This document shows positions 17,823 to 43,711 of a DNA stretch of 64,000 nucleotides, piece after piece. The translations under genes and the position numbers were made by a program. The notes beneath the pieces are model-generated. The model was not told the DNA's origin, searched no databases, and was given only the letters and a program-made list of their open reading frames with translations. The stretch lies in contig NZ_LT906450.1 in assembly GCF_900187265.1 (NCBI RefSeq), positions 4,083,444 through 4,147,443 on the forward strand, given 5' to 3'. Each line of letters begins with the position of its first letter. The stretch's first letter is position 1. This stretch comes from Rhodococcus rhodochrous (GTDB taxonomy: Bacteria; Actinomycetota; Actinomycetes; Mycobacteriales; Mycobacteriaceae).

Positions 17823-17858
17823 TATAATTGGATCCATTTACTCAATTATTGAATCCAA
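17823..17858 (+). promoter_or_regulatory. promoter with two GntR-type operator copies upstream of the MFS gene
   Basis: A consensus -10 box TATAAT (17823-17828) runs straight into TTGGATCCAT (17828-17837). A second near copy, TTGAATCCAA, follows at 17849-17858, eleven bases before the MFS start codon. The sites match the TTGGATCCAA palindrome found before the other genes of this island. A repressor bound here would block the promoter. Confidence 0.82.
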
Positions 17859-17868
17859 GCGAGGATCC

Positions 17869-19074
17869 ATGTCCATCACTCCGCCAGGTCTCTTGGGGCG
17901 CCGTTTCTGGCTCCTGTTCGCCGCGTCGACGCTCGTGTGCACGACGACCGGCACTGTCGCCCCCGCCCTCCCTCAGTACATCCAGAACGATCTCGGTCAC
18001 AGCGCCACCGTGGTGGGGATTGTCGTGGGCGCGGCGTCGGTCCTGTCCGTGATCGCCAACCCCGTTCTCGGGCGGATCACCGATCGGGCCGGACGCCGCC
18101 GGATGGGAATGTCGGGCGCCGCACTGGGAGTCCTCGGGATGGGGGTGCTTCTGCTGGCCGGCGGGCTGTGGAACGTAGTCGGTGGGCGGGCGCTGTTCGG
18201 GATCGGTGCCATCGCGCTGAACGTCGCGCTCACCGCCTGGGTGGTGGACGCGGCACGGGCGGATGCGCGGGGACGCGCCCTGGGGATGTTCGGCATCAGC
18301 GTGTGGATCGGCCTGGCGGCAGGTCCCCAGATCGGTCAGACTCTGCTGCACGAGTACGGCTTCACCGCCGTCTGGCTCGCCTGCGCCGCCATGCAGGCGG
18401 GGGCGTTCGGGTGCATCGCGGCCGCTCCGCGTCGCCCCCGGACCGCGGTCGTGGACAGGACCCCGCAGAAGTGGGGACCTGTGGTGGCCGCCACCGCCCG
18501 CCCCAGCGCGATCGCCGCGGCCGCGTGGACCGGTGAATCGATCCTGATGTCCTTCCTCATCCTCCATCTCGTCGACCGCGGCGTGCCGTCCACCGGCCCG
18601 ACCGGTGCGGCGGCGGTCTTCACAGTCTTCTCCGCCGGCGTGGTCGGTTTCCGGTTGCTCCTCGGTACCCGGGTGGATCGGTGGCGGCCGCAGGTCACGG
18701 TGGCGGGGGCCCTGGCCGCCACCACCGCCGGTTACGTCGTCCTCGCCTTCGCGAGCAGCTTCCCAGTCGCCGCGATCGGGGCCGCACTGCTCGGCTGCGG
18801 GTTCTCCCCCCTGTATCCGGCACTGCTGATGCTCACCACCGGCCGGCTCCACCCGAACAGCCGCGCGGCGGGGCTCGGTGTGTTCACCTCGGGTGTCGAG
18901 CTGGGCCTCGCCGTCGGGGTGTTCGCCGGCGGCGTCCTCGTGGACCGGGCCGGTGGTGGAGCCGCAATGCTCGGCGCAGCGGGTTTCCAGATCGTCGCGA
19001 TGGTCGTGCTGCTGTGCCGCCCGTGGCGCGTCACCCCCTCCCCCGCACCGGTCGGCGTGGCTGCGGAGGCCTGA
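17869..19074 (+). CDS. MFS transporter of the GntR regulon
   Basis: A 401-residue major facilitator with about 12 hydrophobic segments. The loop GRITDRAGRRRMGM after segment 2 is the MFS signature. The size and lack of a long central loop resemble drug/H+ antiporter-type (DHA1) members. A GAGGA ribosome site precedes the ATG at 17869. It is convergent with the copper amine oxidase gene across a strong terminator. Because its promoter carries the same operator as the catabolic genes, it may carry the pathway substrate or export a toxic intermediate; the direction cannot be told from sequence. Confidence 0.9.
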   Translation: MSITPPGLLGRRFWLLFAASTLVCTTTGTVAPALPQYIQNDLGHSATVVGIVVGAASVLSVIANPVLGRITDRAGRRRMGMSGAALGVLGMGVLLLAGGLWNVVGGRALFGIGAIALNVALTAWVVDAARADARGRALGMFGISVWIGLAAGPQIGQTLLHEYGFTAVWLACAAMQAGAFGCIAAAPRRPRTAVVDRTPQKWGPVVAATARPSAIAAAAWTGESILMSFLILHLVDRGVPSTGPTGAAAVFTVFSAGVVGFRLLLGTRVDRWRPQVTVAGALAATTAGYVVLAFASSFPVAAIGAALLGCGFSPLYPALLMLTTGRLHPNSRAAGLGVFTSGVELGLAVGVFAGGVLVDRAGGGAAMLGAAGFQIVAMVVLLCRPWRVTPSPAPVGVAAEA

Positions 19075-19098
19075 ACGGCACATCCGCGCAGACGAATT

Positions 19099-19130: not shown

Positions 19131-19145
19131 CTGCGTTCGATCCGG

Positions 19146-21098
19146 TCAGCTACCGCAGCACGCCGACTCGCCACCGGACTCGGTGGAGCAGTGCGGCGTG
19201 GGCGCGGGGATGTCCATCGCCGGGTTCCGGTCGAAGAAGCCGTCCGGCTCGAACATGAAACCGATCTGCTCGACCGGCATGATCGGCCACTGCTCGGGAC
19301 GCGGGAAGTGCATCACGCCGATGACCGGCCACAGCACCAGTTCGGCACCGTCGAGCGAGCGTCCCTTCTGCTGCCACACCTGCACGCCGTCCTCGCCGGG
19401 CTCGGCCTGGTTCGGGTACTGGCCACCGACGTACTGCTCGGCGGGATCGTAGGGGGTGGCCCACAAGTGGTTGTGGGTGAACGGTGCTCGCCGGGCCATC
19501 ACGGAGTCCGGGGTGGAGAACGGGATCGTGGTGTTGGGCAACAGGAGCCGGTAGCCGGTGGGCTCGCCGTAGCGGTTGGTGCGCTCGGCGCTCTCGATAC
19601 GCCAGTGCCGCGAGACCGACGCGTCGTTGCGCTGGGCCGCGTCCTTCTCGTTCAGCAGCGGGACCCGCACGGTCCGCACCGCATTGCCCCAGGGGTTTTT
19701 CTCGGGGTCCGGATCGACCTCGGCATGCTCCTCGACGATCCGGTTGAGCGGTCCGTCGATCGCGGTGTCCAGGCGCAGGCCGAAGAAGTGCTGGTGGTTG
19801 GGGGTCTGGACGTTCTTGGAGACGACCCGGCCGTAGGGGGCCTCCTCACCCTCCTCGATTCCGGAGGCCGACATCAGGCCGGTGAGTTTGACGGCGAGCT
19901 TGATGGTGCCGTCCTGGTGCAGCGACCAGTAGAAGCCGTAGTCGTAGTTCGCAACGGTCTGGAAGTTGGAGATGATGAGCTTGCGGGCGCGGCGCACCTG
20001 CCCGACGTCGCGACGCATGTCGGTGTGCTTCCACAGGACGCTGTCGTCCTCTTCGTGCATGCAGATCGCCTGCGGAATGGTCCGGCCCACCCCGTCGCCG
20101 CCGAGCACGGTCGCGTCGAAGTAGTGGATGACACCGAGGCAGTCGCATCCGAGCGCGAGGGAGTTGGTCAGCGGGCCGGCACCGTACTCACCCCAGTCGA
20201 AGAAGTTCTTGCGGTACTGGGTGGAGTTCGAGTCGAGGTACGGGACGTACATCTCGTTGCAGGCGACACGCTTGAGGATCGAACGGCCCTTGAACGTGAG
20301 GTCGTACAGTACGAGGCCCTCACGGTGGGTGAAGCCGAGGCGGAACTCCCAACCCTGCCAGGTGACCTTCCATCCCTCGACGTCGAAGCTCGTGCCTTCG
20401 GGCTGGACGACCTCGAGCGGGGCGAGACCCTCACGGTCGGGCTCCCACAAGCCGTTGTCGTAGTTGCCGGTCTCCTCCGAGATCGGCACGACACCGTGGT
20501 CCTCGACCTCGAGGACCTCCATGGTCTGCATATCGATGATGGGCACGACCCCCTGCACGGGGCGGGCGTAGCCGTTGTCGTCCTCGTCCACGCGGTGCCA
20601 GACGGTGCCCCAGGTGACGCGGCGGTCCTTGTACTCGTCGGGCACGAATCCGCCCATCGACTCCGCGTCGACCATCACGAGCGAGACGTCGGTGATGCCA
20701 CGCTTGGCGAGGGCGGCGCGGAACTCGGGGTTTTCGCGGCAGGCCTGGGCGGCGGCGCGGGCCTCCTCGGAGGTGATGCCCGGACGACGGGGGTCGATGG
20801 CGCGCCAGTCGCGGATCCGCGACTCCTCGCCGAGGAGGACGTCGACCTCCCAGGCTTCGTTGTTGCCGTAGTCCATGACCACGAGACCGACCTTGCGCTC
20901 GCCGGCCGGTGCCGCGCCGGCGAGGACCGCGCGGGCATGGGCCTCGTCGAGCGTGGCACCCCAGAAACGGAGCCGGTCGCCGGTGCGCGCGTCGGCACGC
21001 ACCAGGGCCACGGCGGCGTCGATCTCCTCACGGGCGAGCGGATCGAGCGGGTGGCTGCTGACGGCGACTTTGCCTTGCGTGGGTGCGTAAGCGCTCAC
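19146..21098 (-). CDS. copper-containing primary amine oxidase (TPQ type)
   Basis: Oxidises a primary amine to the aldehyde, releasing ammonia and hydrogen peroxide; 650 residues, close to Arthrobacter phenethylamine oxidase. The TPQ precursor Tyr385 lies in TVANYDYG (consensus TxxNYD/E), the catalytic base Asp301 in FFDWGEYG, and the copper ligands are His435 and His437 (NHQHF) and His597 (GVMHFP). All match the known spacing, so the enzyme should be active. There is no signal peptide. I chose the GTG at 21098 because AAGGAG lies just upstream; the longer frame would run through the operator at 21145-21154. The amine substrate cannot be read; arylalkylamines are usual for this size class. 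Confidence 0.96.
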   Translation of the reverse strand: MSAYAPTQGKVAVSSHPLDPLAREEIDAAVALVRADARTGDRLRFWGATLDEAHARAVLAGAAPAGERKVGLVVMDYGNNEAWEVDVLLGEESRIRDWRAIDPRRPGITSEEARAAAQACRENPEFRAALAKRGITDVSLVMVDAESMGGFVPDEYKDRRVTWGTVWHRVDEDDNGYARPVQGVVPIIDMQTMEVLEVEDHGVVPISEETGNYDNGLWEPDREGLAPLEVVQPEGTSFDVEGWKVTWQGWEFRLGFTHREGLVLYDLTFKGRSILKRVACNEMYVPYLDSNSTQYRKNFFDWGEYGAGPLTNSLALGCDCLGVIHYFDATVLGGDGVGRTIPQAICMHEEDDSVLWKHTDMRRDVGQVRRARKLIISNFQTVANYDYGFYWSLHQDGTIKLAVKLTGLMSASGIEEGEEAPYGRVVSKNVQTPNHQHFFGLRLDTAIDGPLNRIVEEHAEVDPDPEKNPWGNAVRTVRVPLLNEKDAAQRNDASVSRHWRIESAERTNRYGEPTGYRLLLPNTTIPFSTPDSVMARRAPFTHNHLWATPYDPAEQYVGGQYPNQAEPGEDGVQVWQQKGRSLDGAELVLWPVIGVMHFPRPEQWPIMPVEQIGFMFEPDGFFDRNPAMDIPAPTPHCSTESGGESACCGS

Positions 21099-21144: not shown

Positions 21145-21154
21145 TTGGATCCAA
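21145..21154. promoter_or_regulatory. GntR-type operator, perfect TTGGATCCAA, amine oxidase promoter
   Basis: A perfect 10-bp palindrome lies 46 bp upstream of the amine oxidase GTG, in an AT-rich stretch. It is identical to the copies before the Rieske, amidohydrolase and binding-protein operons. Confidence 0.85.
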
Positions 21155-21244: not shown

Positions 21245-21265
21245 TTCGATCCAAGTTGGATCCGA
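21245..21265. promoter_or_regulatory. paired operator-like sites upstream of the GntR gene
   Basis: TTCGATCCAA (21245-21254) and TTGGATCCGA (21256-21265) each differ from the TTGGATCCAA palindrome at one position. They are spaced 11 bp centre to centre, one helical turn, and lie 81 bp before the regulator start. The arrangement suggests autoregulation with a weaker double site. Confidence 0.7.
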
Positions 21266-21346: not shown

Positions 21347-22042
21347 ATGAGCGACACCAGTACCGGGCACGCTTTGGTGGACGACACCGCAGCGGCCATC
21401 CGAGCGAAGATCATGTCCGGCGAGATCCCGATCGGCGCCCAGCTCCGGCAGGCCGAACTCGCGAAATCCCTCGGCGTCAGCCGCACCCCGGTGCGCGAGG
21501 CCCTGCGGCAGCTCCAGGCCGGAGGACTGATCGAGGTCGTCCCCAATCGCGGTGCGGTCGTGCGCGTCCCGGTTCCCTGGGAGGTCCGGGAGGCCTACGA
21601 GGTCCGCGCCGAACTCGAGGCCCTCGCCTGCGAGCGGGCCGTCGACCGGATCACCGACGACGCTCTCGAGGAGCTGAGGGAGACGAACCGCGTTCTGCGC
21701 GAGACCCGCCCGGAGCCGACCGAACCGGGCCGGCCCGGCGCCAGCACCCTGGCGAACGACCGCTTCCACACCCTCATCCACGAAGCAGCCGGCAACGAGC
21801 GGCTCTCCCGGGTGATCGCCCAGCTCAACGAGACCTTCCCCCGGAACGTCTCCGCCACGGTGCTGCAGGACAATTCGCGGCACCGCGAGGACAACCTGCG
21901 CGAGCACGAACAGATCGTGGCCGCCATCGAGGCCGGCGACCACGCGGCGGCACGCGAGGCGATGCGCCGGCACGTCCTCAGCGCGGGCGAACAGCTCGCA
22001 CGCTGGTACGAGCGCCGGTCCTCGACCGTCTTCAAGGGCTGA
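21347..22042 (+). CDS. GntR-family regulator with FCD domain, likely regulator of the island
   Basis: A 231-residue transcription factor. The winged helix is in residues 10-75 (AAAIRAKIMSGEIPIGAQL, SLGVSRTPVREALRQLQAGG, VPNRGAVV). An all-helical FCD ligand domain fills 80-215, with the metal/ligand-type residues of the family in NDRFHTLIHEAAGN and HEQIVAAIEAGD. An AGAAGAGG ribosome site precedes the ATG. It is the only transcription factor between 17.8 and 43.7 kb and is divergent from the amine oxidase. Operator-like palindromes stand before itself and all other units, so it is the best candidate for the factor binding TTGGATCCAA, probably as a repressor released by a pathway metabolite. Confidence 0.94.
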   Translation: MSDTSTGHALVDDTAAAIRAKIMSGEIPIGAQLRQAELAKSLGVSRTPVREALRQLQAGGLIEVVPNRGAVVRVPVPWEVREAYEVRAELEALACERAVDRITDDALEELRETNRVLRETRPEPTEPGRPGASTLANDRFHTLIHEAAGNERLSRVIAQLNETFPRNVSATVLQDNSRHREDNLREHEQIVAAIEAGDHAAAREAMRRHVLSAGEQLARWYERRSSTVFKG

Positions 22043-22105: not shown

Positions 22106-22116
22106 TCGTCTTCCGG

Positions 22117-24474
22117 TCAGACCCGGGCGGGGGCCAGCATCCGGCCCGGCTCCAGGAAATCCAGATCGGGCCGCGACACACCCGTCACCAGGTCCGCGAG
22201 CGCCTCTCCGACGGCGGGTCCGAACTTGAATCCGTGGCCCGAGCACGCGGCCGCCACGAGGATCTGCGGCGTCTCCGGCAGCGGCCCGAGCGCGAAGCGA
22301 TTGTTCGGTGCCATCGTGTACCGGCAGGACAGTGAGCCCACCACCGCTCCGTCCGCGGCGGGCAGGAACCGGCGGACCAGAACGTGCAGGACGTCGATCT
22401 CGCTCTGCGACACCGGCTTGCGCGCGGTGGTGAGGTCGTCCTCGGGACCGTGATCGAGGCCCACCTTGAGGGTGTCGCCACCGTAGGACGGGATGCCGTA
22501 CATGAGGCCGACCCCGGGCACCTCGATGGAGAACGGGCCGAGGTTCGGCGGCGCGAGCATCTCCGGCCGGGACCCGGCAACGTGGATGTTGACGATGCGC
22601 ACCACGTCGAGCACGGGCGCGAACTGCGGGAGCAGCTCCGAGATCCACGGCCCGGCGCAGACGACCACGCGGGCGGCCCGGATGCGGCCGGCGGTCGTGG
22701 TGACCACGGCGCCGTCGCCGTCGGGATCGATGCCGAGCACCCGGACACCCTCACGGCGGTCCACTCCGGCACGCCGGCCGATCGCGGTCAGCTGGGCCAT
22801 CGCGGCCGCGGCGTCGACGACACCTGCGGCGGGGTCGTAGAGCGCGCGGAAGCCGGCACCGAGTTCGAGGCCGGGGAAACGCCGGGCCGCCTCAACGTGG
22901 TCGACCATCACGCAGTCCGGCCCGTCCAGCCCGGACTCGGCGTCCAGCGCGCGGGCGTAGAGGCCACCGGTCGTGGTGATCAGCGGGCGGGCGACCTCCT
23001 CCTCGAGTTCGGCCCAGGCCCGGTAGGCACGGTCGACGAGGGGGTACCAGATCGGATTCGGGTAGGCGCGCCGGATCATCCGGGCACGGCCGTGCGAGGA
23101 GCCCTCCACGTGTCCTTCGGAGAACTGCTCGAGCTGGATCACCCGCACACCGCGCCGGGCCAGCTGCCACGCGGTGGAGTTGCCGTGGATACCGGCGCCG
23201 ACGACGACCACGTCCGTCGATTCCGCTGCCTCCACCGGCGCCGACCGGCGCGGGGCCAGGTCGGCGAGCGACGGGGTGGCGGGCAGTGGCACCCGCACCA
23301 CTCCCTCGGGTTCCTGCAGCACCTCGACGAGGGCGTCGAGGTCGTCCTCACCGTTGTAGACGTGCATCGAAGCGCGGACCACCGCGTCGATCCCACGGTC
23401 GCCGAGATCCCACTGGGCGTGGGCGGCAGGTACGGCGACGACCCGGATCCCGCGGCGGCGCAGGTGTTCCTTGACGTCGAGCGCGGATCGTCCGTCCACT
23501 CCGAAGGTGACGATGCCGCCACCCGCGGCCGGCGGATCGAGGACGGTGACACCGGCGACCCCGGCGAGCTTCGCACGCAGCAGGCTCCCGAGATCGCCGA
23601 TGTGGCGGGTGATCGCATCGATGCCGGTGGCGAACGCCTCGTCGAGGGCGGTACCGAGGCCGAGTTCGAGTGCGTGCGAGGCCTCCCAGGTCTCGAACCG
23701 CACCGCCGAGTCCTTCAGCTCGTAGGAGTTGTCGGCCTTCCACAGCGCTCCTCGCACGTCCGGCGAGCCGGGACGCAGGGTCTCGCGCGCGGCCGGCGAG
23801 ACGTAGAGCAGGCCGGTGCCGCGCGGCCCGCGCAGGAACTTGCGTCCGGTGGTGACGAGGATGTCGCAGCCGATCGTCGCGACGTCCACCGGCAGCTGGC
23901 CGACGGACTGCGTCGCGTCGAGCAGGTAGGTCACTCCCGCTGCGCGGCACAGTGCTCCGACCTCGGCGACGGGTTCGACGAGTCCGGAGGAGGTGGGCAC
24001 GTGTGCGACGGTGACGAGGCGGGCAGACCTCTTCAGGGCGCCGGCGAGGGCGTCGAGGTCGATGCGGCCGGCCGCGTCGTTGGGGACGACCTCGATCTCG
24101 ATGCCGAGGCTGTCGCGCAGTTCCAGGAGGTGCAGGGCCGAGCTCACGTAGCTCGACCGGGAGACGAGGACGCGGTCGCCGCGCTGCAGTCTCAGCGCGG
24201 CGAGGGCGCGGTGCCAGCCGTCGGTGGCGCTGTTCACCAGCGCGATGTCGGTGGAGTCGGCACCGAGCAGCCGGGCCGCACTGTCGTACACCGCGTCGAT
24301 ACGCCCGCGGGCGAGGGCGTCGGCCTCATACCCACCGATGCGGGACTCGAGTTCGAGGTGCTGCCGCACCGTGGACAGCACCCCCGAGGAGAGCAGCGCG
24401 GCGCCCGCGGCGTTGAGGTGGTGGGAGAGGCCGGCCCCGGGCGTGTGCGCGCGGTGGTCTGCAACGTCGATCAC
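22117..24474 (-). CDS. class V aminotransferase fused to a sarcosine-oxidase-like flavoenzyme
   Basis: A 785-residue two-enzyme fusion. Residues 1-388 are a PLP fold-type I, class V aminotransferase/desulfurase-like domain with Asp186 (LLDATQS) and the PLP Lys212 in TTGRKFLRGPRG. A 30-residue linker leads to residues 420-770, a monomeric sarcosine oxidase/N-methyltryptophan oxidase-type domain. It shows the FAD site VVGAGIHG, the family segment EGSSHGRARMIRRAYP, a candidate covalent-FAD cysteine (Cys717 in SCRYTMAP) and CSGHGFKFGP. The GTG start has AGGAG upstream. It is a separate unit with its own operator at 24538. An amine could be oxidised by one half and handled by the PLP half, but the reaction is unknown. 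Confidence 0.9.
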   Translation of the reverse strand: MIDVADHRAHTPGAGLSHHLNAAGAALLSSGVLSTVRQHLELESRIGGYEADALARGRIDAVYDSAARLLGADSTDIALVNSATDGWHRALAALRLQRGDRVLVSRSSYVSSALHLLELRDSLGIEIEVVPNDAAGRIDLDALAGALKRSARLVTVAHVPTSSGLVEPVAEVGALCRAAGVTYLLDATQSVGQLPVDVATIGCDILVTTGRKFLRGPRGTGLLYVSPAARETLRPGSPDVRGALWKADNSYELKDSAVRFETWEASHALELGLGTALDEAFATGIDAITRHIGDLGSLLRAKLAGVAGVTVLDPPAAGGGIVTFGVDGRSALDVKEHLRRRGIRVVAVPAAHAQWDLGDRGIDAVVRASMHVYNGEDDLDALVEVLQEPEGVVRVPLPATPSLADLAPRRSAPVEAAESTDVVVVGAGIHGNSTAWQLARRGVRVIQLEQFSEGHVEGSSHGRARMIRRAYPNPIWYPLVDRAYRAWAELEEEVARPLITTTGGLYARALDAESGLDGPDCVMVDHVEAARRFPGLELGAGFRALYDPAAGVVDAAAAMAQLTAIGRRAGVDRREGVRVLGIDPDGDGAVVTTTAGRIRAARVVVCAGPWISELLPQFAPVLDVVRIVNIHVAGSRPEMLAPPNLGPFSIEVPGVGLMYGIPSYGGDTLKVGLDHGPEDDLTTARKPVSQSEIDVLHVLVRRFLPAADGAVVGSLSCRYTMAPNNRFALGPLPETPQILVAAACSGHGFKFGPAVGEALADLVTGVSRPDLDFLEPGRMLAPARV

Positions 24475-24537
24475 GAAGCACTCCTGGATTGAAGGGGCGA
24501 GATCGCCCGGTCCGCTTTGTATACCGACACTATCAGA

Positions 24538-24547
24538 TTGGATCCAC
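24538..24547. promoter_or_regulatory. GntR-type operator upstream of the fusion enzyme
   Basis: TTGGATCCAC matches the island palindrome at nine of ten positions. It lies 63 bp upstream of the GTG start of the aminotransferase-flavoenzyme gene and downstream of the terminator that closes the preceding operon. Confidence 0.8.
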
Positions 24548-24634: not shown

Positions 24635-26089
24635 CTACAAGGCCACGACCACACTCTTCGGTTCGCAGAATCCGAAGAGTGCCTCGTCGCCGAGATCCCG
24701 GCCGACACCCGAGTCCCCGAGCCCACCGAAGGGCAACGCGGGGTCGAAGACGTTGTAGGTGTTGATCCACACCGTGCCGGCTCGCAGCCTCGCCGCCATC
24801 CGGTGGGCCCGGGAGACGTCCTTCGTCCAGACACCCGCGGCGAGACCGTAGTTCGTGTCGTTGCCGATCGCGATCGCCTCCTCCTCGTCCTCGAAGGGGA
24901 TGACCCCGACCACCGGCCCGAAGATCTCCTCGCACGCGATGGTCATCGAGTTGTCGACGCCGACGAACAGGGTCGGTTCGACGAAGAAGCCCGGCAGATC
25001 GGGCACCCCGCCACCGACGAGCACCTGCGCGCCCTCCTCGCGGCCGATGGCGATGTAGCGCAGGACCTGCTGCCGCTGCTCCTCGGACACGAGGGGACCG
25101 ACGGTTATGCCACCGTCAAGGCCGTTGCCCACGGGTACCTTCCTTACCGCCGCAGCGAGCCGCTCGTGCATCTCGTCGAGGATCGAACGCTGCACCAGCA
25201 ATCGGCTTCCCGCCGTGCACATCTGACCGGAGTGCCCGAAGGAGGCGCGCATCGCGGTGAAGACGGCGGCGTCGAGATCGGCGTCCTCGAAGACGATGTT
25301 GGGGCTCTTGCCGCCGAGTTCGAGGGTGAGCCGCTTGCTGGTGGGGGCCGCCGCTGCCATCACCGCGCGTCCCACCTCGGTGGAGCCGGTGAACGACACC
25401 TTCGCGACCCCGGGGTGTTCGACGAGCCGGGCACCGACGCGACCGTCGCCGGTGACGACGTTGACCACACCGGCGGGGACACCGGCCTGCTCGCACAGCG
25501 CCGCGACCCGCAGCATCGTCAGCGGCGTCTGCTCGGCGGGCTTGACCACGACGGTGCAGCCGGCGGCGAGCGCGGGGGCGAGCTTGAAACAGCCCGTCAT
25601 GATGGGGAAGTTCCACGGCAGGATGAGCGCGGCCACCCCGACGGGTTCGCGGGTGGTGTAGACGTGGTGGTCACCGGCGATCGGGACGGTGGTGCCCGTC
25701 AGACGTGTCGTCGCTCCGGCGAAGTGCCGGAAGGTGTTCGCGCTCGACTGCGTGTCGGCGCGGGACCGCTCGATGGGCTTGCCGTTGTCGCGGGTCTCGA
25801 GCACCGCCAGTTCCTCGAGGTTCTCCTCGATGAGATCGGCGATGCGGGTGAGGATCCGGGCGCGTTCGAGCGGCGGCAGGGTGCGCCAGCGTCCGTCCGC
25901 GTGGGCGGCGGCGGCCGCGGCGACCGCGGCGTCGACGTCCTCGTCGGTGGCCGATACCGCGCGGGTGAGGACCTCCCCGGTGGCGGGGTCGAGGACGTCG
26001 AAGCATTCGCGGTCGCCGGCGGGGATCCACCGGCCGTCGATGTAGAACGGTTCGGCGGCCGAGACGGCGGGTTCGGTGATGAGGGTCAA
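24635..26089 (-). CDS. NAD(P)-dependent aldehyde dehydrogenase
   Basis: Oxidises an aldehyde to the acid, 484 residues. PWNFP carries the oxyanion Asn (about residue 160). The cofactor site shows FTGSTEVG, the general base Glu257 lies in LELGGKSPN, and the nucleophile Cys291 in GHSGQMCTAGSR. I chose the TTG at 26089 because CAGGAG lies eight bases before it; the next start would cut conserved sequence and the longer frame overlaps creatininase. It is the third gene of the amidohydrolase-creatininase-dehydrogenase operon. It is the natural partner for the copper amine oxidase, whose aldehyde product it would remove. Confidence 0.95.
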   Translation of the reverse strand: MTLITEPAVSAAEPFYIDGRWIPAGDRECFDVLDPATGEVLTRAVSATDEDVDAAVAAAAAAHADGRWRTLPPLERARILTRIADLIEENLEELAVLETRDNGKPIERSRADTQSSANTFRHFAGATTRLTGTTVPIAGDHHVYTTREPVGVAALILPWNFPIMTGCFKLAPALAAGCTVVVKPAEQTPLTMLRVAALCEQAGVPAGVVNVVTGDGRVGARLVEHPGVAKVSFTGSTEVGRAVMAAAAPTSKRLTLELGGKSPNIVFEDADLDAAVFTAMRASFGHSGQMCTAGSRLLVQRSILDEMHERLAAAVRKVPVGNGLDGGITVGPLVSEEQRQQVLRYIAIGREEGAQVLVGGGVPDLPGFFVEPTLFVGVDNSMTIACEEIFGPVVGVIPFEDEEEAIAIGNDTNYGLAAGVWTKDVSRAHRMAARLRAGTVWINTYNVFDPALPFGGLGDSGVGRDLGDEALFGFCEPKSVVVAL

Positions 26090-34870: not shown

Positions 34871-34901
34871 GCTCGACACCTCGTATCCGATTACTATTGA
34901 A

Positions 34902-34911: not shown

Positions 34912-34957
34912 TATTGCCAGATTGTCATCCACGCGCAAATCGAGAACGGAGCCGCAC

Positions 34958-36387: not shown

Positions 36388-36411
36388 GGTCGAAAACCTC
36401 CATGTACGAGT

Positions 36412-36439
36412 GCGACCCCGGAGCGGTCTCCGGGGTCGC
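36412..36439 (-). terminator. hairpin inside the importer operon, before the reductase gene
   Basis: GCGACCCCGGAG (36412-36423) pairs perfectly with 36428-36439 around a 4-base loop. It fills most of the 56-bp gap between the amidohydrolase and the reductase. It may partly stop transcription and lower reductase level, or mark the end of the importer unit. Confidence 0.68.
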
Positions 36440-36443
36440 GGGA

Positions 36444-38039
36444 TCATCCGATGGTCGTGAGCCGCCCGGTCGCCACAGTGCCGCGCACGAAATCCGGTGC
36501 GGTCAGCCGATCGCCGGGGGCGGTGAGGGGATCGTCGGCGAGCAGGACGAGATCTCCGGGCCCGCCGGGGACGAGGTGCCCACCGGCGGTGCCCAGCAGT
36601 GCGGCTGCCCCGCTGGTGTGCAGTCTCCAGGCCGCCTCGGCCCCGATCTCGCGGAGGACCGAAGCCATTCCCGCTGCCGGGGACAGCTCCGGGCCGGGGG
36701 CGTCCGACCCGCCTCCGACGACGACGCCGTGGGCGAGCCAGTTCCCGAGGCGGCCGAGCGTGGCCGCGGCGGGCTCACCGAGGCGGTTGCGGATCGACGG
36801 CAGCGCCGCATCGCCGAGTGCGGGTTGCGCGGCGACCCCGACACCGAGTTCGGCTGCCTGCGCCGCGAACTCGACGCGGTGTTCCAGATAGGCGTGGATC
36901 AGATGTGTGCCCGTCCCGGCCCAGGACGGCAGGATCCCGGCGTCGACGGGGCGGCGGAGCAGGTCGAGCACCAATTCCACGGCAGCCGGCCCGACGGTGT
37001 GCAGGGCGAGACCGCTGCGTCGCTGCGCGGCCCACGCGATGTAGCTCTCGAGGGTCTCCGTCGAGGTGGACTGCACCCCACAGCTGTCGGTTCCCGGCCA
37101 CGGGTCGTGGCGCAGGGCGGTGCCGAGCATCCCTCCACCGTCCACGAACAACTTGGCGGGTCCGAGCGACAACCGGGCGGCCGGATCCTGTGAGATACCC
37201 ACGGATTCGACCTCCTTCCGGAACTGTTCGGGGTCGCTGCCGTCGAGGGCGTGGGGGAACACGACGAGGCGGACGGGCGGGTCCTCGCTCACGTACAGGT
37301 CCCGGTAGGCGGCGAGTTCGTCGATCCCCAGCGCGGGGTCGGCCGCGCAGGTGACGCCGACGCGGACGAGTTCATCCAGGCCGGTGCGGATCCATCCGCG
37401 CCGCTGCGCCTCCGTCGGAGCCGGCACGACCGCGGAGACGACGGCCACGGCACCGTGTTCGACGAGTTCGCCGGTGAGGTGCCCGTCGGCGTCGCGGCCG
37501 AAGCGCCCGCCCACCGGATCCGGCGAGTCGTCCCGGATTCCGGCGCTGCGCAGCGCGGCCGAGCTGGCGAGTCCGTCGTGACCCCGCCGGTCGAGCAGCA
37601 TCGGCCGCCCGCCGGCCGCCTCGTCGAGTTCGGCGAGTGTGGGCAGACGCCGCTCCTCGAAGGACGTCTCGTCGAATCCGGCGCTGCCGAGCAGCCAGGA
37701 GGACCGGGGCAGGTCGGATGCGGCGGCACGGATACGGTCGAGCGCCTGCGGGATCGACGTGCAGTCGTCGAGCCGCAGTCGGCCGGCGGCACGCCCGAGC
37801 CACATGACGTGGACGTGGGAGTCGACGAAGGCCGGTGCCACCACCCCGTCGTGGTGCACCGTGCGGATTCCTTCCGGCGCAACCGCGGTCACCTCGGCGA
37901 TCGAACCGACCGCCGTCACCGTCCCGTCGACGATGCACACCGCCTCGGCGGTGCCGGTGCCCGCGACCGGCCGGACGTCCCCGCACACGACGAGCGAGGA
38001 CGTCGGATCGAACCCCTCCCGGGGTGCTCGGGTGGCCAT
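36444..38039 (-). CDS. YtcJ-like amidohydrolase (amidohydrolase_3 family)
   Basis: A 531-residue zinc-type amidohydrolase. PAFVDSHVHVMW is the HxH metal motif. The lysine position of the family is LGPAKLFVDGGG, histidines lie in LALHTVGPAAVE and LIHAYLEHR, and the final aspartate is in GGGSDAPGP. The C-terminal beta-sandwich (GTAGGHLVPGGPGDLVLLADDPL) is complete. Relatives hydrolyse N-substituted formamides, cyclic imides and other amides. The ATG lies one base after the importer ATPase stop. It is cytoplasmic, so it would act on the imported substrate or an early intermediate. Confidence 0.9.
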   Translation of the reverse strand: MATRAPREGFDPTSSLVVCGDVRPVAGTGTAEAVCIVDGTVTAVGSIAEVTAVAPEGIRTVHHDGVVAPAFVDSHVHVMWLGRAAGRLRLDDCTSIPQALDRIRAAASDLPRSSWLLGSAGFDETSFEERRLPTLAELDEAAGGRPMLLDRRGHDGLASSAALRSAGIRDDSPDPVGGRFGRDADGHLTGELVEHGAVAVVSAVVPAPTEAQRRGWIRTGLDELVRVGVTCAADPALGIDELAAYRDLYVSEDPPVRLVVFPHALDGSDPEQFRKEVESVGISQDPAARLSLGPAKLFVDGGGMLGTALRHDPWPGTDSCGVQSTSTETLESYIAWAAQRRSGLALHTVGPAAVELVLDLLRRPVDAGILPSWAGTGTHLIHAYLEHRVEFAAQAAELGVGVAAQPALGDAALPSIRNRLGEPAAATLGRLGNWLAHGVVVGGGSDAPGPELSPAAGMASVLREIGAEAAWRLHTSGAAALLGTAGGHLVPGGPGDLVLLADDPLTAPGDRLTAPDFVRGTVATGRLTTIG

Positions 38040-38040: not shown

Positions 38041-39036
38041 TCAGGCGCTCAGCGAGTCCGGGAAGTGGCAGCGCACCGCGCGGCCGTCCTTCCGTTCCGT
38101 CAGCGACGGCGCCACCTCCCGGCACATCGGATCCACGACGGGACAGATGTCCGCGAACCGGCATCCGGTGGCCGTGCGGGGAATCGAGGGTACGTCCCGG
38201 TCGGGGTCCCCGGCGGCCCCGGAGGTGCCGGGGACGGCGTCGAGCAGCGTGCGGCTGTAGGGGTGCAGGGGTTCGTCGAAGAACTCGTCGGCGGGCGCGA
38301 TCTCGACGATCCGGCCGAGGTAGACCACGCACACCCGGTCGGCGATGTGCCGCACGACGCCCATGTCGTGCGAGACGAACATCATCGTCAGGTTGCGTTC
38401 CTTCTGCAGGTCCACGAGCAGGTTCACGACCTGGGCCTGGATCGACACGTCGAGCGCGGAGACCGGTTCGTCGGCGACGACGAAGCGCGGGCTCACGGCC
38501 AGCGCCCGGGCGATCCCGACGCGCTGGCGTTGCCCGCCCGAGAACTGCGCGGGATAGCGGTCGAGCAATGCCTCGGAGATGCCGACCTGCCCGAGCAGTT
38601 CCTCGACGTAGCCGTCGATACGGTCGCGTTCCATGATGCCGAAGTTGCGCAGGGGTGCGGCGACGATCTCGCGGACGGTCATCCGCGGATTGAGCGAGCC
38701 GAAGGGGTCCTGGAAGATCATCTGCATCTCGCGGTGGAACTCCCGCATCCGCGGCGGCGAGAGCGACTCGATCCTCCTGCCCCGGTAGGTGATCGTCCCG
38801 CCCACCACCGGAGCGAGTCCGAGCAGGGCCTTGCCGAGAGTGGACTTGCCGCTGCCGGATTCGCCGACGACGCCGAGCACCTCACCTTCGAGGATCTCGA
38901 GCGAGACCTCGTCGAGCGCGACCGGGGCACCCGATCGGGCGCGGCCGTATCGCACGGTCAGGTTCTCGACCTCGATCAGCGGTGCGCGCTGTGGGGGTTC
39001 GGCGTACGGCTCGTGCCGCGTGGCGGTCTCAAACAT
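38041..39036 (-). CDS. peptide/opine-type ABC importer ATPase (OppF/DppF-like)
   Basis: A 331-residue ATP-binding subunit. Walker A is GESGSGKST, the Q-loop lies in MIFQDPFGSLNPR, the signature is FSGGQRQR, Walker B is FVVADEPVSALD and the switch His lies in FVSHDMG. The C-terminus has the oligopeptide-transporter extension with the Cys cluster region (CRFADICPVVDPMCREV) that in relatives can bind an iron-sulfur cluster. It overlaps the OppD-like gene by 8 nt. It pairs with that subunit to energise the permeases. Confidence 0.95.
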   Translation of the reverse strand: MFETATRHEPYAEPPQRAPLIEVENLTVRYGRARSGAPVALDEVSLEILEGEVLGVVGESGSGKSTLGKALLGLAPVVGGTITYRGRRIESLSPPRMREFHREMQMIFQDPFGSLNPRMTVREIVAAPLRNFGIMERDRIDGYVEELLGQVGISEALLDRYPAQFSGGQRQRVGIARALAVSPRFVVADEPVSALDVSIQAQVVNLLVDLQKERNLTMMFVSHDMGVVRHIADRVCVVYLGRIVEIAPADEFFDEPLHPYSRTLLDAVPGTSGAAGDPDRDVPSIPRTATGCRFADICPVVDPMCREVAPSLTERKDGRAVRCHFPDSLSA

Positions 39037-40033
39037 GGGCAGGTACCTTCACTCGGTTCGTCAGGCACGCATCGAGGTGCCCCGGGGACGAGTCGGCGGG
39101 CAGCAGGGGCGGGATCCCGTGGTCGCAGTCCGGAGTCGCCAGGCTGCACCGCGGCGCGAAGGCGCATCCGTCGGGGCGTTCGGCTCCGCGGATCGGGTCG
39201 CCGCCGATGGCCGGCAACCGATCGAGACGCGGTCCGTGTACGGGGGTGCGGGATTCGAGCAGTCCGCGGGTGTAGGGGTGGCGGGGGTTGCCGACCACCT
39301 CGTCGACGGTGCCGATCTCGACGATCCGCCCGGCGTACATGACGGCGACGCGGTCGGCGACCTCGGCGACCACCCCGAGATCGTGGGTGACGAGGATGAC
39401 CGACGATCCGGTTTCGCGTTGCAGGCGCTTGATCAACCGCAGGACCTGCTGCTGGATCGTCACGTCCAGGGCGGTGGTGGGTTCGTCGGCGACCAGGACG
39501 CGGGGATCGTTGGCGAGGGCCATCGCGATCATCACACGCTGGCGCATGCCACCGGAGAACTCGTGGGGATAGGACCGGTAGGCGCCCTCGGGGTCCACGA
39601 TGCCGACGGCGTCGAGCAGTTCCACGGCGCGGGCCTGCGCCTCCCGGCGTCCCGTTCTGCTGTGCAGCCGGAGCATCTCGACGATCTGGACACCGACCTT
39701 CTGGATGGGGTTCAGCGCCGACAGCGAGTCCTGGAAGACCACCGCGATCTCGGAGCCGCGGATGGAACGCAGGTCATTCTCGGTGGCGGTGACGAGGTCG
39801 GTGTCGCCGAAGGTCGCCCGTCCACCCACGGTGGTGCCCGGACCACGGTTGAGGCCGATCATGCCCATCGTGAGAGCGGACTTGCCCGAGCCGGATTCGC
39901 CGACGAGGGCGAGCAGCTCACCGGGATACAGGTCGAGGTCGACGTCGGCGACCGCCGGCACCGTGCCCTCCGAGGAGCGGAAGGACACCGAGAAGTTGCG
40001 CAGGGACAGGACAGGATCCGTCTTGGTCGTCAC
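39029..40033 (-). CDS. peptide/opine-type ABC importer ATPase (OppD/DppD-like)
   Basis: A 334-residue ATP-binding subunit. Walker A is GESGSGKSA, the Q-loop lies in VVFQDSLSALNPIQ, the signature is FSGGMRQR, Walker B is VLVADEPTTALD and the switch His is in VTHDLG. The usual C-terminal Cys segment is present (CAFAPRCSLATPDCDHG). The GTG overlaps the DppB-like stop by 4 nt (GTGA) with GGAAGGGAA upstream. It is the heterodimer partner of the OppF-like subunit. Confidence 0.95.
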   Translation of the reverse strand: MTTKTDPVLSLRNFSVSFRSSEGTVPAVADVDLDLYPGELLALVGESGSGKSALTMGMIGLNRGPGTTVGGRATFGDTDLVTATENDLRSIRGSEIAVVFQDSLSALNPIQKVGVQIVEMLRLHSRTGRREAQARAVELLDAVGIVDPEGAYRSYPHEFSGGMRQRVMIAMALANDPRVLVADEPTTALDVTIQQQVLRLIKRLQRETGSSVILVTHDLGVVAEVADRVAVMYAGRIVEIGTVDEVVGNPRHPYTRGLLESRTPVHGPRLDRLPAIGGDPIRGAERPDGCAFAPRCSLATPDCDHGIPPLLPADSSPGHLDACLTNRVKVPAHV

Positions 40034-41157
40034 GACATTCCCTTCCGCAGGCGGGGATCGATCGCGATCTGGATCAGATCCACGACGAGGTTGACGAGGA
40101 TGAACACCGTCGCGATCGCGAGGACCGCACCCTGGACGACGAGGTAGTCCCGCTGGATCACCGACGACACCAGCAGGTTTCCGATGCCGGGATACGAGAA
40201 CACCGATTCGGTGATGACGGCGCCGCCGATGAGCGATCCGAACTGGATTCCGAGAGCGGTGACGATCGGCAACGACGCGTTGGGCAGCAGGTGCCGGAAG
40301 ACGATGCGGGACTCGGAGGCGCCCTTCATCCGGGCGGTGCGGATGAAGTCCTCGCCGCGGACGTCGAGCACCGCGGTCCGGGCCATGCGGGTGAAGAAGC
40401 CGGCCATGGAGATCGCCAGCGTCGTCGCGGGCAGGACGAGATGCTTCGTCCAGGGCATCACGAGATCGGGACGGTTCTGCAGAATCGCGTCGAGCAGGAC
40501 GAAATTGGTGGTCGGCGTGTAGTCGAGGGAGGACGGCATGCGGCCGAGCACCGGTAGCCATCCCAGCACGACACCGAACAGGTAGATCGACGCGACGCCG
40601 AGCGCGAACCACGGCAGCGCGAAGGTGAGGGTGGACAGTGCGCGGATGCCGGTGTCGATCCAGGTGTCCTTCGTCAGGGCGGCGACGATGCCTCCCGTCA
40701 CCCCGATGAGGACCGCGAGGAACATCGCGGCCACGGCCAGTTCGAGGGTCGCGGGCAGCGCGGTCCACAGCAGGTTCGCGACGTCGTTGCCGCCGTAGTA
40801 CGACGAGCCGAGGTCGAAGGTGACGAACGAGCGCAGGAAGTCGACGTACTGCTGCCACAGCGGCCGGTCCAGACCGAGCTGTTCGTTGATCAGCGCGGTA
40901 TTGGCCTCGATCTCGGCGGTGGTCAGGCCCTGGGTTCCGTTGGTGGCGAGCGAGGATGCCGGCGAACCCGGTATCAGGCGCATCGCGAGGAACACGAAGG
41001 TCGTGATCGCCAGCAGCATCGGTGGCACCAGCGCGATGCGCTTGAGCACGGCGATCCCCACCCCGCTGCGGTCCCGGCGGGACGGGCAGGTGGCCTTCTC
41101 GGCCGGGAGCGCGGGCGGGGCGGTGAGTCCGGTGGGCACCGGTCGGGTCACTGTCAT
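40030..41157 (-). CDS. peptide/opine-type ABC importer permease (DppB-like)
   Basis: A 375-residue permease with six expected membrane segments and a cytoplasmic N-terminal extension of about 35 residues that is longer than usual. FVFLAMRLIPGSPAS is the typical first segment, and the EAA coupling loop is FIRTARMKGASESRIVFRHLLPNA. The C-terminus LVVDLIQIAIDPRLRKG is typical of DppB. It overlaps both neighbours by 4 nt. Confidence 0.95.
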   Translation of the reverse strand: MTVTRPVPTGLTAPPALPAEKATCPSRRDRSGVGIAVLKRIALVPPMLLAITTFVFLAMRLIPGSPASSLATNGTQGLTTAEIEANTALINEQLGLDRPLWQQYVDFLRSFVTFDLGSSYYGGNDVANLLWTALPATLELAVAAMFLAVLIGVTGGIVAALTKDTWIDTGIRALSTLTFALPWFALGVASIYLFGVVLGWLPVLGRMPSSLDYTPTTNFVLLDAILQNRPDLVMPWTKHLVLPATTLAISMAGFFTRMARTAVLDVRGEDFIRTARMKGASESRIVFRHLLPNASLPIVTALGIQFGSLIGGAVITESVFSYPGIGNLLVSSVIQRDYLVVQGAVLAIATVFILVNLVVDLIQIAIDPRLRKGMS

Positions 41158-42020
41158 CGCATGTCCTTGACGTCGATGGCATCGCGCAGGTCGTCGCCGA
41201 CGAAGCTGCAGGCGGCCACGAACAGCACCGTCAGCAGCGCCGGCAGCAGAACCAGTTGCGGGGCGGAGTAGATGAACTCCTGTCCGGCCTGGACCATGTA
41301 GCCCCAGTCGGGTGTGGGGGGCTGGATTCCCAGTCCCAGATACGACATTCCGGCGGCGAATCCGGCGGCGATCGACAGCGTCGTGACGAACTGGACGAGG
41401 ATCGGGCCGGCGATGTTCGGCAGGATCTCACGGAAGAGTGTGCGGGGCAGGCGCGATCCGCCCACGCGGGCGGCGAGGATGTAGTCCTTCGAGGCCTCCC
41501 GCAGCGCGAGCGTGCGGGTCAGGCGCGCGAAGGCGGGCGCCAGGGCGATGCCCACGCCGACGACGAGGGTGCCGGCGCCGGGACCGGCGATCGCGACGGC
41601 GATGATGATCAGCACGATCGACGGCATGGCCATGCCCAGATCGGTGAACCGCATGAGCAGCTGGTCGAGGCGGCCGCCGCGGTATCCCGCGACGAAGCCG
41701 AGCACGACACCGATGACGCAGCTCAGGGCCGCGGCCAGGATGGACACCTCGACGAGTGGCCGCGCCCCGTACACGAGGCGGGCGAGCTGGTCGCGGCCGA
41801 GATCGTCGGTGCCGAGCAGGTGTCCGGGCGATCCGACGGGCAGCAGCGGAGACGCGTCCTGACGGAGCGGATCGGTGCCGAGGAGCATCGGCCCGAGGAT
41901 CGCCAGGAGCACGAAGAAGATCGCTGTGCCCCAGGCGATCACCGCGACGGGACGGCGGGCGATCCGGCGATCGGATCGCTTCCGCCCCGTGCGCTTCCTC
42001 GATGGGGCGGAGCTAGACAC
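41154..42020 (-). CDS. peptide/opine-type ABC importer permease (DppC-like)
   Basis: A 288-residue permease. A basic N-terminus (RKRTGRKRSDRR) is followed by the first segment and by HLLGTDDLGRDQLARLVYGAR, a DppC hallmark. The EAA loop is YILAARVGGSRLPRTLFREILPN. The C-terminal segment SFVGDDLRDAIDVK closes the family. The GTG start overlaps the binding-protein gene by 8 nt. Confidence 0.95.
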   Translation of the reverse strand: MSSSAPSRKRTGRKRSDRRIARRPVAVIAWGTAIFFVLLAILGPMLLGTDPLRQDASPLLPVGSPGHLLGTDDLGRDQLARLVYGARPLVEVSILAAALSCVIGVVLGFVAGYRGGRLDQLLMRFTDLGMAMPSIVLIIIAVAIAGPGAGTLVVGVGIALAPAFARLTRTLALREASKDYILAARVGGSRLPRTLFREILPNIAGPILVQFVTTLSIAAGFAAGMSYLGLGIQPPTPDWGYMVQAGQEFIYSAPQLVLLPALLTVLFVAACSFVGDDLRDAIDVKDMR

Positions 42021-43674
42021 GAGCGGTCTCCGCGAAGCAGCGGTGGTTGGCGAGCGCCGCGAGGTTGAGGTCGCTCACCCCGACTCCGGTGACGACGGGG
42101 TTGCTCGCGCACGCGAGCATCGCGACGCCCATGATCTCGTCGGCGAACTTCTTCTGCAGCGTCGTGTAGATCTCCTTGCGCTCCGCGGGGCTCGTGACGG
42201 CGCGGGCCTCCTTGACCATCGGATCGAACGTCTCCGCGTAGCGGGGCAGCGTGTTGTAGCCGCCGACCACACCGGCGTAGACACCGGTGGAGATGGTCAT
42301 CTCGCCGGCGAGGTTGTCGGGATCGGGGACGTAGGAGTTGCGCTCCCAGATCATCAGTTCGTGGCCGGACGAGGTGGGGTCGAACACGCGGGACGAGAAG
42401 GTCGCCGGGTCGATGGTCTCGACGGTGATCTCGAGGCCGATGTCCTTCAGGTTCTGCTCGACGATCTGGGCGGCGCGGGGGTGCCATGCATCGGAGGCGG
42501 CGAGCAGGGTGAGGCGGCGGCCGGTCGCGCCGACGGATTCGAGCAGACGGCGCGCTTCGGCCGGGTCGCTCGTGCCGATGCCGGCGAGAGAGGTGTCGTA
42601 GCCCTCCACGGACGGCGGGAGCAGGTAGCCCTCCGGCAGCGCACCGACGCCGAAGAAGACCTGTTCGAGGATGGCCTTGCGGTCGATGGCGAGGTTGATG
42701 GCCTTGCGCACCTCGAGCTCGGCGAGCGCCGGCTGCCGCACGTCCATGATGACGAAGGCGTCGAAGGACGGTGCGGGTTCGTAGACGATGACCTTGTCGT
42801 TGCCGCGCAGCTGGCCGAGCGACGAGTGCGGGGTCAGCGCGGTCGCCGAGATGTCGCCGGAGATCAGCGAGGAGATGATCGTCGAGGGGTCCTGGATCTG
42901 CTGCAGCACGAGACGGCGGGTGGCGGGGGCGCCCTCGTAGTAGTCGTCGAACGCCTCGAGCACGACGTTCTGACCCGAGGTGGAGGACACGAGCTTGTAG
43001 GGTCCCGTGCCGATGAGGTTCTTGCCGATGTCCTGGCCGTACTGCTCGATGGCGGCGGCGGGCATGATGCGGCCGCCGATGTCGGACAGCTTGGACAGCA
43101 CGGTGCCGTCCGGGGTCTGCAGGACGAGCTCGACGGTGGAGTCGTCGACGGCCCGGATGGACTCGAAGTTGTTGCCGATGGACTTGAGCGGCCGTGACGA
43201 GCCGGTGGGCAGGGTGGGGTCGTTCTTGTCGAACTGGCGGCTGAGCGAGCGTACGACGTCGTTCGCGGTGAGCGTGCTGCCGTCGTGGAAGGTGACGCCC
43301 TGCCGCAGGGTGAAGGTGTAGGTGCGGCCGTCCTCGCTGACGGTCCAGGACTCGGCGAGATCGGGCTGCGGCTCGTTGGTCTCGAAGTCGATGAAGGTCA
43401 GGCCGCGGCAGACGCAGTCGACGACCATCCAGTCCCCGAGGGTGGTGTAGAAGGCGGGATCGTGGATGGCGCTGGTGCCGTCGATGCCGATGGTCAGGGT
43501 TCCACCCGAACCGCCCGAGCCCGACCCGGAGCCGTCACCGTTCGGCTGGGCGGTGCCGCACGCGGCCGCGAGGGTCGTGACACCGAGGCCGAGTCCGAGC
43601 ACGCCCACACCACGCAGGAGCGAACGCCGAGAGAAGGACGGGGTCTCCGCAGTCCGTTTCGTCGAATCCACCAT
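42013..43674 (-). CDS. ABC importer substrate-binding lipoprotein (family 5, Tat-type signal)
   Basis: A 553-residue extracytoplasmic binding protein of the peptide/nickel/opine family. The N-terminus has a twin-arginine motif (SFSRRSLLRG), a hydrophobic stretch and a lipobox (LAAAC), followed by a Gly/Ser-rich linker. It should therefore be exported folded and lipid-anchored. ESWTVSEDGRTYTFTLRQGVTFHDG is the typical family signature region. I chose the second ATG (43674) because GAGGA stands just before it; the ATG at 43686 would add four residues. It heads a seven-gene operon under the operator at 43702. The ligand is unknown and is probably the substrate of the whole island. Confidence 0.94.
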   Translation of the reverse strand: MVDSTKRTAETPSFSRRSLLRGVGVLGLGLGVTTLAAACGTAQPNGDGSGSGSGGSGGTLTIGIDGTSAIHDPAFYTTLGDWMVVDCVCRGLTFIDFETNEPQPDLAESWTVSEDGRTYTFTLRQGVTFHDGSTLTANDVVRSLSRQFDKNDPTLPTGSSRPLKSIGNNFESIRAVDDSTVELVLQTPDGTVLSKLSDIGGRIMPAAAIEQYGQDIGKNLIGTGPYKLVSSTSGQNVVLEAFDDYYEGAPATRRLVLQQIQDPSTIISSLISGDISATALTPHSSLGQLRGNDKVIVYEPAPSFDAFVIMDVRQPALAELEVRKAINLAIDRKAILEQVFFGVGALPEGYLLPPSVEGYDTSLAGIGTSDPAEARRLLESVGATGRRLTLLAASDAWHPRAAQIVEQNLKDIGLEITVETIDPATFSSRVFDPTSSGHELMIWERNSYVPDPDNLAGEMTISTGVYAGVVGGYNTLPRYAETFDPMVKEARAVTSPAERKEIYTTLQKKFADEIMGVAMLACASNPVVTGVGVSDLNLAALANHRCFAETARV

Positions 43675-43701
43675 GGTTTTCCTCATCCATTGGTCCAGTT
43701 A

Positions 43702-43711
43702 TTGGATCCAA
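43702..43711. promoter_or_regulatory. GntR-type operator upstream of the importer operon
   Basis: A perfect TTGGATCCAA lies 27 bp before the binding-protein start. On the minus strand a promoter-like pair, TTACAT, 17 bases, then TTATAG, runs into the palindrome, so a bound protein would cover the transcription start. Confidence 0.85.

Follow-up and report, generated by a model that had tools for sequence, protein, structure and literature searches.

The 64,000-nucleotide stretch of Rhodococcus rhodochrous DNA analysed here (contig NZ_LT906450.1, positions 4,083,444 to 4,147,443; hereafter the window) holds a 26-kb catabolic island, from 17823 to 43711, in which one palindrome recurs at the promoters. 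We consider it likely, taking all steps together, that this palindrome, ATTGGATCCAAT as a 12-mer and TTGGATCCAA as a decamer, is the operator of a VanR-group GntR/FCD protein encoded at 21347..22042 (+ strand), whose dimers would repress nine transcription units for the import and degradation of an amine. That the palindrome is bound by the regulator which the island itself encodes is very probable on comparative grounds. Exact copies are confined to the island, the sites are conserved with the regulator across rearranged islands, and over half of the promoters carry a partner site 21 bp away. Beyond these computed patterns, we infer binding, inducer, substrate and direction of regulation. An earlier sequence-only reading of this DNA had proposed a single operator read by a single regulator, with some 20 genes under joint control, and the retention of sites with the regulator in rearranged islands argues for that proposal.

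Exact copies of TTGGATCCAA stand at 21145, 27777, 34902 and 43702, and one-mismatch copies at 17828, 17849, 21245, 21256 and 24538, all of them where the sequence-only reading had placed them; 0 of 100 shuffles reached four exact copies. The genome-wide scan which that reading had suggested was run on the source genome, a single contig of 5,274,756 bp, with the reversed pattern as control. It returned four exact copies, all at island promoters, and none for the control. At up to one mismatch the genome holds 16 copies against 14 for the control, and the total is therefore not in excess; nine of the 16 fall within the 26-kb island, so that the excess lies in placement. Allowing two mismatches gave 12 copies in the window against a mean of 9.4, which is not above chance, and this looser motif was dropped because it gained nothing. 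Five of the seven off-island copies at up to one mismatch lie within predicted reading frames (L005, L008, L009, L105 and L108; by eye, L105 is P450-like, and L108 codes poorly). No catabolic promoter with a copy was seen among these five, and L106 and L107 could not be assigned.

The palindrome had been claimed for every promoter of the island, and each of the nine transcription units (21 genes) indeed begins at a site. The promoter of the major facilitator superfamily (MFS) transporter has TTGGATCCAT at 17828..17837, which is exact in G068, a genome of the same genus, and TTGAATCCAA at 17849..17858, 21 bp away. Between the copper amine oxidase (CuAO) and GntR genes lies the exact copy at 21145..21154, with the degenerate partner CTGTATCCGA at 21166, and two near copies, TTCGATCCAA at 21245..21254 and TTGGATCCGA at 21256..21265, stand upstream of the GntR gene. 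Upstream of the gene for a fusion enzyme is TTGGATCCAC at 24538..24547, again exact in G068, and 21 bp from it the degenerate partner TTGTATACCG at 24517..24526. The remaining exact copies occupy 27777..27786, between the amidohydrolase operon and the deaminase gene (degenerate partner at 27798); 34902..34911, between the Rieske operon and the gene for a small protein (degenerate partner at 34881); and 43702..43711, at the importer operon, where the partner at 43723 is very weak (score -0.5).

One genome for each of 84,980 species was searched with an alignment of three regulator sequences. Of the 29 loci obtained, L078 (38% identity over 61 residues) was a spurious short match and was left out of the counts. 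The remaining 28 are all actinobacterial, with regulator identities of 61-75%, and come from Rhodococcus, Actinoplanes, Paractinoplanes, Catenuloplanes, Symbioplanes, Pseudonocardia, Acrocarpospora, Jiangella, Streptomyces, Kineosporia, Lacisediminihabitans, Microbacterium, Conexibacter, Micromonospora and Phytohabitans. Their 562,052 bp contain 37 exact decamers and 94 at up to one mismatch; each of 29 composition-matched control palindromes gave 0 exact copies and at most 28 at up to one mismatch in the same DNA. Further counts used 30 loci, namely 27 of the 28 together with G213, G068 and the window. L050 and L018 both represent the G213 locus; L050 was counted in the 28-locus set, and the longer G213 stretch replaces it in the 30-locus, distance and pairing counts. 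Of 114 copies in the 30 loci, 98 are found at most 320 bp from an island gene start, two are inside island genes (one of them also among the 98), and 15 lie elsewhere, some beside genes outside the query set; these 15 were kept among the 114, also for the pairing counts. In 28 of the 30 loci, the window's included, the regulator orthologue has a copy with at most one mismatch within 400 bp on either side.

In G068 the island has the same gene order, 86-99.5% protein identity and six exact decamers, and at its MFS promoter the flanks have diverged from those of the window while both operators are kept. In Rhodococcus sp. IEGM 1379 (G213) most genes are present in rearranged order, with sites again at promoters. 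Within the bacterial family, the regulator (at E <= 1e-50) and the Rieske gene (at E <= 1e-120) are found in the identical three of 301 genomes, the next regulator match being 41% identical; in a second family they share the same two of 22 genomes, and they occur together also in G594. A class-wide sample has the Rieske gene in four of 394 genomes (G000, G594 and the two second-family genomes). Since the pair is present in only two of 18 genomes of the same genus, the island is accessory, and its patchiness and rearranged gene order suggest horizontal spread; no plasmid-borne relative was found at E <= 1e-20.

The sequence-only reading had treated the sites singly. Its positions held and the pairing escaped it: over half of the sites stand in 21-bp pairs. 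When sites were aligned by gene orientation, a second GGATCC-like element appeared at +21 and -21. With a position weight matrix, 69 of the 114 sites have a positive-scoring partner at +/-21 bp, and other offsets from 13 to 44 give 0-8. For a non-redundant set, neighbouring sites were merged (98 regions) and those with flanks more than 55% alike removed, which left 62 promoters; 36 of them have a partner with at least 7/10 matches exactly 21 bp away, against a mean of 0.67 and a maximum of 4 at other offsets from 11 to 60. In the window, the pairs 17828/17849, 21145/21166, 21235/21256, 24517/24538, 27777/27798 and 34881/34902 score positive, and 43702/43723 scores just under zero. As 21 bp corresponds to two helical turns, two dimers would come to lie on the same side of the helix. 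This is consistent with a dimer of dimers and may mean cooperative binding.

The protein at 21347 has an N-terminal GntR winged helix-turn-helix (3.6e-18) followed by an FCD domain (2.8e-25), the domain combination of the VanR group. It is the only DNA-binding family match among the island genes scanned, in agreement with its earlier description as the sole regulator. In an AlphaFold2 model (mean predicted local distance difference test score 88.8), DSSP finds seven helix elements from residue 77 onward and no extra helix before it. Because a single residue parts 166-175 from 177-195, we read these two as one, and the modelled effector domain would thus have six helices and lack the extra helix of FadR. 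By E-value, the best fold match was Atu1419 (TM-score 0.55-0.62), and FadR structures, a chimera first, followed from rank 32. Across 29 sequences H141, H187 and H209 are invariant and R87 and N137 nearly so; presumably they form the metal/effector site of this family. Identity to the Caulobacter VanR sequence used for comparison is 33%. Most likely, judging by the modelled fold, the regulator belongs to the VanR group and functions like its members.

Among more distant family members (33-41% identity), nine of 26 have a copy with at most one mismatch nearby, and seven of these nine, all of one genus, have the GGATCC core; in L020 and L023, whose neighbours were read, other catabolic genes lie alongside. 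Separately, the distant homologues in L019, L020 and L023 (39-41%) stand by eye beside gamma-glutamyltransferase-family-like genes, in L020 and L023 also with DapA-like genes, and the sites in these three loci are of TTGGATCC or TTGGATGC type. Other FCD regulators (L030-L032, L035-L037, L039, L041 and L042) have TTG(T/C)AT(G/A)CAA-like palindromes nearby, an operator akin to that of the island but distinct from it. The possibility that the recognition helix holds a specificity code was considered, as homologues with the latter sites have SRTPVREALRQLE where the 21347 clade has ...QLQ; it was dropped because Caulobacter VanR likewise has E at that place.

In the mechanism that we propose, dimers would occupy main and partner sites, probably as pairs of dimers on one helix face, and would keep the nine transcription units repressed, among them that of the regulator itself. 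The dimers would be released when an acid or amine intermediate enters the FCD pocket. The 21 gene products would then import and degrade an amine, which may be gamma-glutamylated by an NpaA1-like ligase, oxygenated by the Rieske enzyme and relieved of glutamate by a gamma-glutamyltranspeptidase (GGT)-like enzyme, with copper amine oxidase and aldehyde dehydrogenase serving a side branch or a later one.

Several observations weigh against this proposal, at different steps of it. The first concern the sites. Of 301 family genomes, 13 contain a perfect 12-mer (and 0 of all 301 the reversed control), and several of the 13 have no regulator match at E <= 1e-25. Among 13 loci outside G000 and G068, a clear regulator homologue is found in L089 and L091 and a weak one in L092. 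In L079, L080, L092 and L093, all of genus g9, ATTGGATCCAAT is centred in longer inverted repeats, which are apparently unrelated to the island regulon. In L081, L082, L084, L087 and L088 it stands, by eye, at divergent promoters of short-chain dehydrogenase/reductase (SDR)-like and enoyl-CoA-hydratase-like genes, in some with a TTGTCAAC-type sequence alongside and with the regulator homologue absent from the 3-kb locus; here it is perhaps another regulator's site. The 12-mer alone therefore does not identify the regulator, and calling regulons by it alone is inadvisable. In addition, two of the 30 orthologues (L055 and L067) have sites with two mismatches and no closer copy nearby. The near copies at 21245 (two mismatches in G068) and 21256 are not kept there at up to one mismatch and are for that reason the least certain. 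In G068, the remaining five promoters that were compared have mostly conserved flanks as well, which makes that genome informative mainly at the MFS promoter. Concerning the regulator, the best fold match by TM-score is a Brucella GntR protein, 7u5q (0.79).

The genomes with the 12-mer and no regulator match, together with 16 FCD-domain proteins over the cut-off in the source genome, leave room for the palindrome to be the operator of a different regulator encoded elsewhere. We regard this as improbable, because a copy adjoins the 21347 orthologue in nearly all loci and in many genera, GGATCC-core copies accompany even some distant homologues in one genus, the island genes scanned offer no second DNA-binding family match, and regulator and Rieske gene were in the same genomes wherever both were tested. 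It would be far less probable still that the palindrome is a BamHI-like word recurring by chance, or a repeated element, with no regulatory role. The near-equal genomic totals for the palindrome and its reversed control and the g9 inverted repeats would suit such a view, but a site at every unit, conservation across genera and the absence of exact copies for all 29 control palindromes contradict it to the extent that sequence allows.

With the island's own regulator retained as the probable owner of the sites, repression is the weakest step. It is suggested by the closeness of sites to start codons, at most 60 bp in 20 of 22 Rieske, 12 of 13 importer, 4 of 4 MFS and 2 of 2 small-protein cases, and by analogy to the characterised relatives VanR2 (PMC12314914) and Atu1419 (PMC7797058), which are repressors. 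The distance is at most 60 bp, on the other hand, in 0 of 33 GntR, 0 of 21 CuAO and 4 of 18 fusion-gene cases. Two copies had been said to abut a -10-like box, and by eye the hexamer TATAAT at 17823 leads straight into the 17828 copy, and two bases separate the 43702 copy from TATAAG at 43714 (TATAGA on the - strand); a scan of 17600-36000 for sigma-70-type promoters returned none at its threshold. No fixed -10 offset (TANNNT) emerged from 122 oriented site-gene pairs, and the idea of a fixed -10 position relative to the operator was dropped, since no offset dominated and the promoter scan was empty. A regulator that activates, or activates at some promoters and represses at others, would find room upstream at the GntR (64-226 bp) and CuAO (62-244 bp) sites and would not be at odds with the inconsistent -10 offset. 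The short distances at the Rieske, importer, MFS and small-protein genes and the habit of the relatives oppose it, and we think activation unlikely, though a good deal less so than a foreign regulator. It is because no GntR or CuAO distance is 60 bp or less that we hold the proposal as a whole as likely and no higher, and leave activation this share.

The island was counted, by position and strand, as 21 genes in nine transcription units. Gene calls come from Pfam and NCBIfam scans, and as most NCBIfam matches are below curated cut-offs they name relatives, not functions. The earlier gene assignments hold by these scans, except that the small "membrane protein" (34922..35401, +) has no family match in either and is a probable membrane protein from its hydrophobicity, judged by eye. 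The MFS transporter (Pfam MFS_1; 17869..19074, +) and the copper amine oxidase (19146..21083, -) are encoded ahead of the regulator. The next gene (22117..24474, -) encodes a fusion, aminotransferase-V plus DAO by family match, of an EgtE/SufS-like pyridoxal phosphate (PLP) domain (residues 47-382) and a sarcosine/N-methyltryptophan-oxidase-like flavin adenine dinucleotide (FAD) domain (421-762) that is closest to sarcosine oxidase. The fusion protein was matched in 28 of the 30 loci, in some as two separate pieces. A first operon comprises an amidohydrolase (Amidohydro_2; 26924..27706, -), a creatininase-family amidohydrolase (26115..26915, -) and an aldehyde dehydrogenase (24635..26080, -), the latter two assigned by Pfam/NCBIfam. 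Between the fusion and aldehyde dehydrogenase genes lies a GC-rich hairpin (24571-24614), mostly conserved in G068; by eye it is probably a terminator, and it is missing from the scan's list. The cytidine-deaminase-like protein (27848..28402, +) is below the family cut-off, with no Pfam match.

The Rieske operon contains the genes for the Rieske oxygenase (Rieske plus LigXa_C domains; 33524..34879, -), the glutamine-synthetase-like enzyme, hereafter the ligase (32011..33531, -), a cyclase/arylformamidase-family metal-dependent hydrolase (31291..31926, -), a GGT-family protein with no signal peptide evident by eye (29762..31300, -) and a GMC-type oxidoreductase-like protein (28407..29763, -; weak below-cut-off matches, no Pfam match). 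The importer operon encodes a family 5 solute-binding protein (42013..43686, -), the two ATPases and two permeases of an oligopeptide-type ABC importer (38041..42020, -), an amidohydrolase (Amidohydro_3; 36444..38039, -) and an oxygenase reductase (Fer2, DmmA-like_N; 35431..36447, -). Beyond the island comes GroEL (43871-45529).

The substrate is likely an amine because of the relatives of the ligase, the copper amine oxidase, the fusion and the hydrolase, and it is perhaps N-methylated or aryl-alkyl. The best solved relative of the ligase is NpaA1 (8WWU, 5e-131; next sequence 5e-52), to which it is closer than to glutamine synthetases, among solved structures only. The copper amine oxidase is closest among solved structures to phenylethylamine oxidases, and the best match of the hydrolase is an unnamed metal-dependent hydrolase (8hmo), followed by kynurenine formamidases. 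Ligase and Rieske frames overlap by 8 bp in the window, and in the 24 (of 28) related loci with both genes no other island gene lies between them. These enzymes suggest amine catabolism through gamma-glutamylation and Rieske oxygenation. In the 30 loci the regulator is present in 30, the fusion, copper amine oxidase and Rieske protein in 28 each, the ligase in 27, aldehyde dehydrogenase in 26 and the importer binding protein in 13; absences are not firm, as many loci end 10 kb from the regulator. Reductase and GGT, matched in only nine loci each within these limits, count against the pathway as drawn, and its order is for this reason a guess. In 13 of the 15 named genera (not in the Pseudonocardia and Conexibacter loci), a locus combines ligase, Rieske protein, copper amine oxidase and fusion next to the regulator. 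A more specific version of the proposal, which we offer tentatively and with slightly less than even confidence, is that a VanR-type tetramer recognises a near-perfect ATTGGATCCAAT together with its degenerate partner at 21 bp and thereby controls an undescribed, patchily distributed amine pathway that combines ligase, single Rieske protein, copper amine oxidase and PLP-FAD fusion.

For an uncharacterised amine pathway, the analysis predicts the operator, the regulator and a regulon of 21 genes; its inducer, and thence its substrate, could be sought with one reporter. The operator appears to be shared with vanillate-inducible genetic tools, and cross-talk is possible in actinobacteria carrying the island. 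The 21-bp pairing provides a concrete hypothesis, open to mutation, on how VanR-group regulators engage DNA.

Among known pathways, the closest comparison is to the 1-naphthylamine pathway. Its NpaA1 is a GoaS (glutamyl organic amide synthetase) enzyme, which attaches glutamate to aromatic amines and so opens them to a Rieske dioxygenase (PMC11335346). GoaS enzymes are set apart from glutamine synthetases by the missing catalytic Asp50' and Glu and by an aromatic entry tunnel. The island resembles the NpaA1/AtdA1 pathways in its NpaA1-like ligase and in the adjoining ligase and Rieske genes. It differs in that its Rieske component is one subunit, akin to a putative phthalate 4,5-dioxygenase, and in that a GGT-family protein takes the place of AtdA2. 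The aniline dioxygenase system AtdA1-A5 joins a ligase, a GAT-like hydrolase, a two-component Rieske dioxygenase and a reductase; in the island, one Rieske protein and a GGT-family protein were found, and no GAT-like match among the island genes scanned. The npaA1-A5 set, as described, has no counterpart for the copper amine oxidase, the PLP-FAD fusion or the amidohydrolases.

The operator itself is probably not new and appears to have the sequence used by a known vanillate-responsive switch. We take ATTGGATCCAAT to be VanO, the operator of Caulobacter VanR, and the stretch of a Caulobacter construct that holds the 12-mer is presumably the van promoter. For a palindrome presented as the operator of an uncharacterised regulator, the link between regulator and operator is supported by comparison, and the novelty of the operator probably does not hold, the palindrome being present in the vanillate-induced Caulobacter construct. 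The 12-mer and a second near copy lie within this construct, which was screened after vanillate induction (PMC6538847); a vanillic-acid operator used in Trypanosoma holds the BamHI site GGATCC (PMC4920640); the excerpt of PMC10229424 names VanO and gives no sequence; and VanR is described as a GntR-type repressor in Caulobacter (of vanAB) and Acinetobacter (PMC6888825). Among the matches listed in the open literature, the operator with a GntR protein led to the Caulobacter construct and the VanR papers and to none on this pathway, and the 10-mer with GntR to only an unrelated match. Whereas Caulobacter VanR controls one vanAB operon, the island has 21 genes; the copies in the construct are, by eye, 39 bp apart, against 21 bp in the island, and vanillate is not the evident substrate here. 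Set against control of the vanillate demethylase vanAB, the predicted regulon does include a Rieske protein and a reductase, but the Rieske relatives include a putative phthalate dioxygenase and the gene sits with the ligase.

Two better characterised relatives frame the proposed regulator. Atu1419 of Agrobacterium fabrum, of the VanR group of FCD proteins, is a tetramer in which each dimer sits on a 10-bp palindrome with an essential G at position 3 (PMC7797058). It is the island regulator's best fold match by E-value, and its palindrome is as long as the decamer predicted for the island; unlike the island, it has the operator ATGTATACAT and two palindromes 190 bp apart with looping and no 21-bp phasing. 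VanR2 of Pseudomonas sp. NGC7 is a GntR repressor of the vanA1B1 O-demethylase operon, with gel shifts on GGGATCCC and site mutations tested in promoter assays; of its copies, the one immediately downstream of the -10 seems crucial (PMC12314914). It differs from the island in the flanking bases, in serving a syringate pathway and in having three copies in one intergenic region, and it resembles the island regulator in being a GntR protein with a related palindrome.

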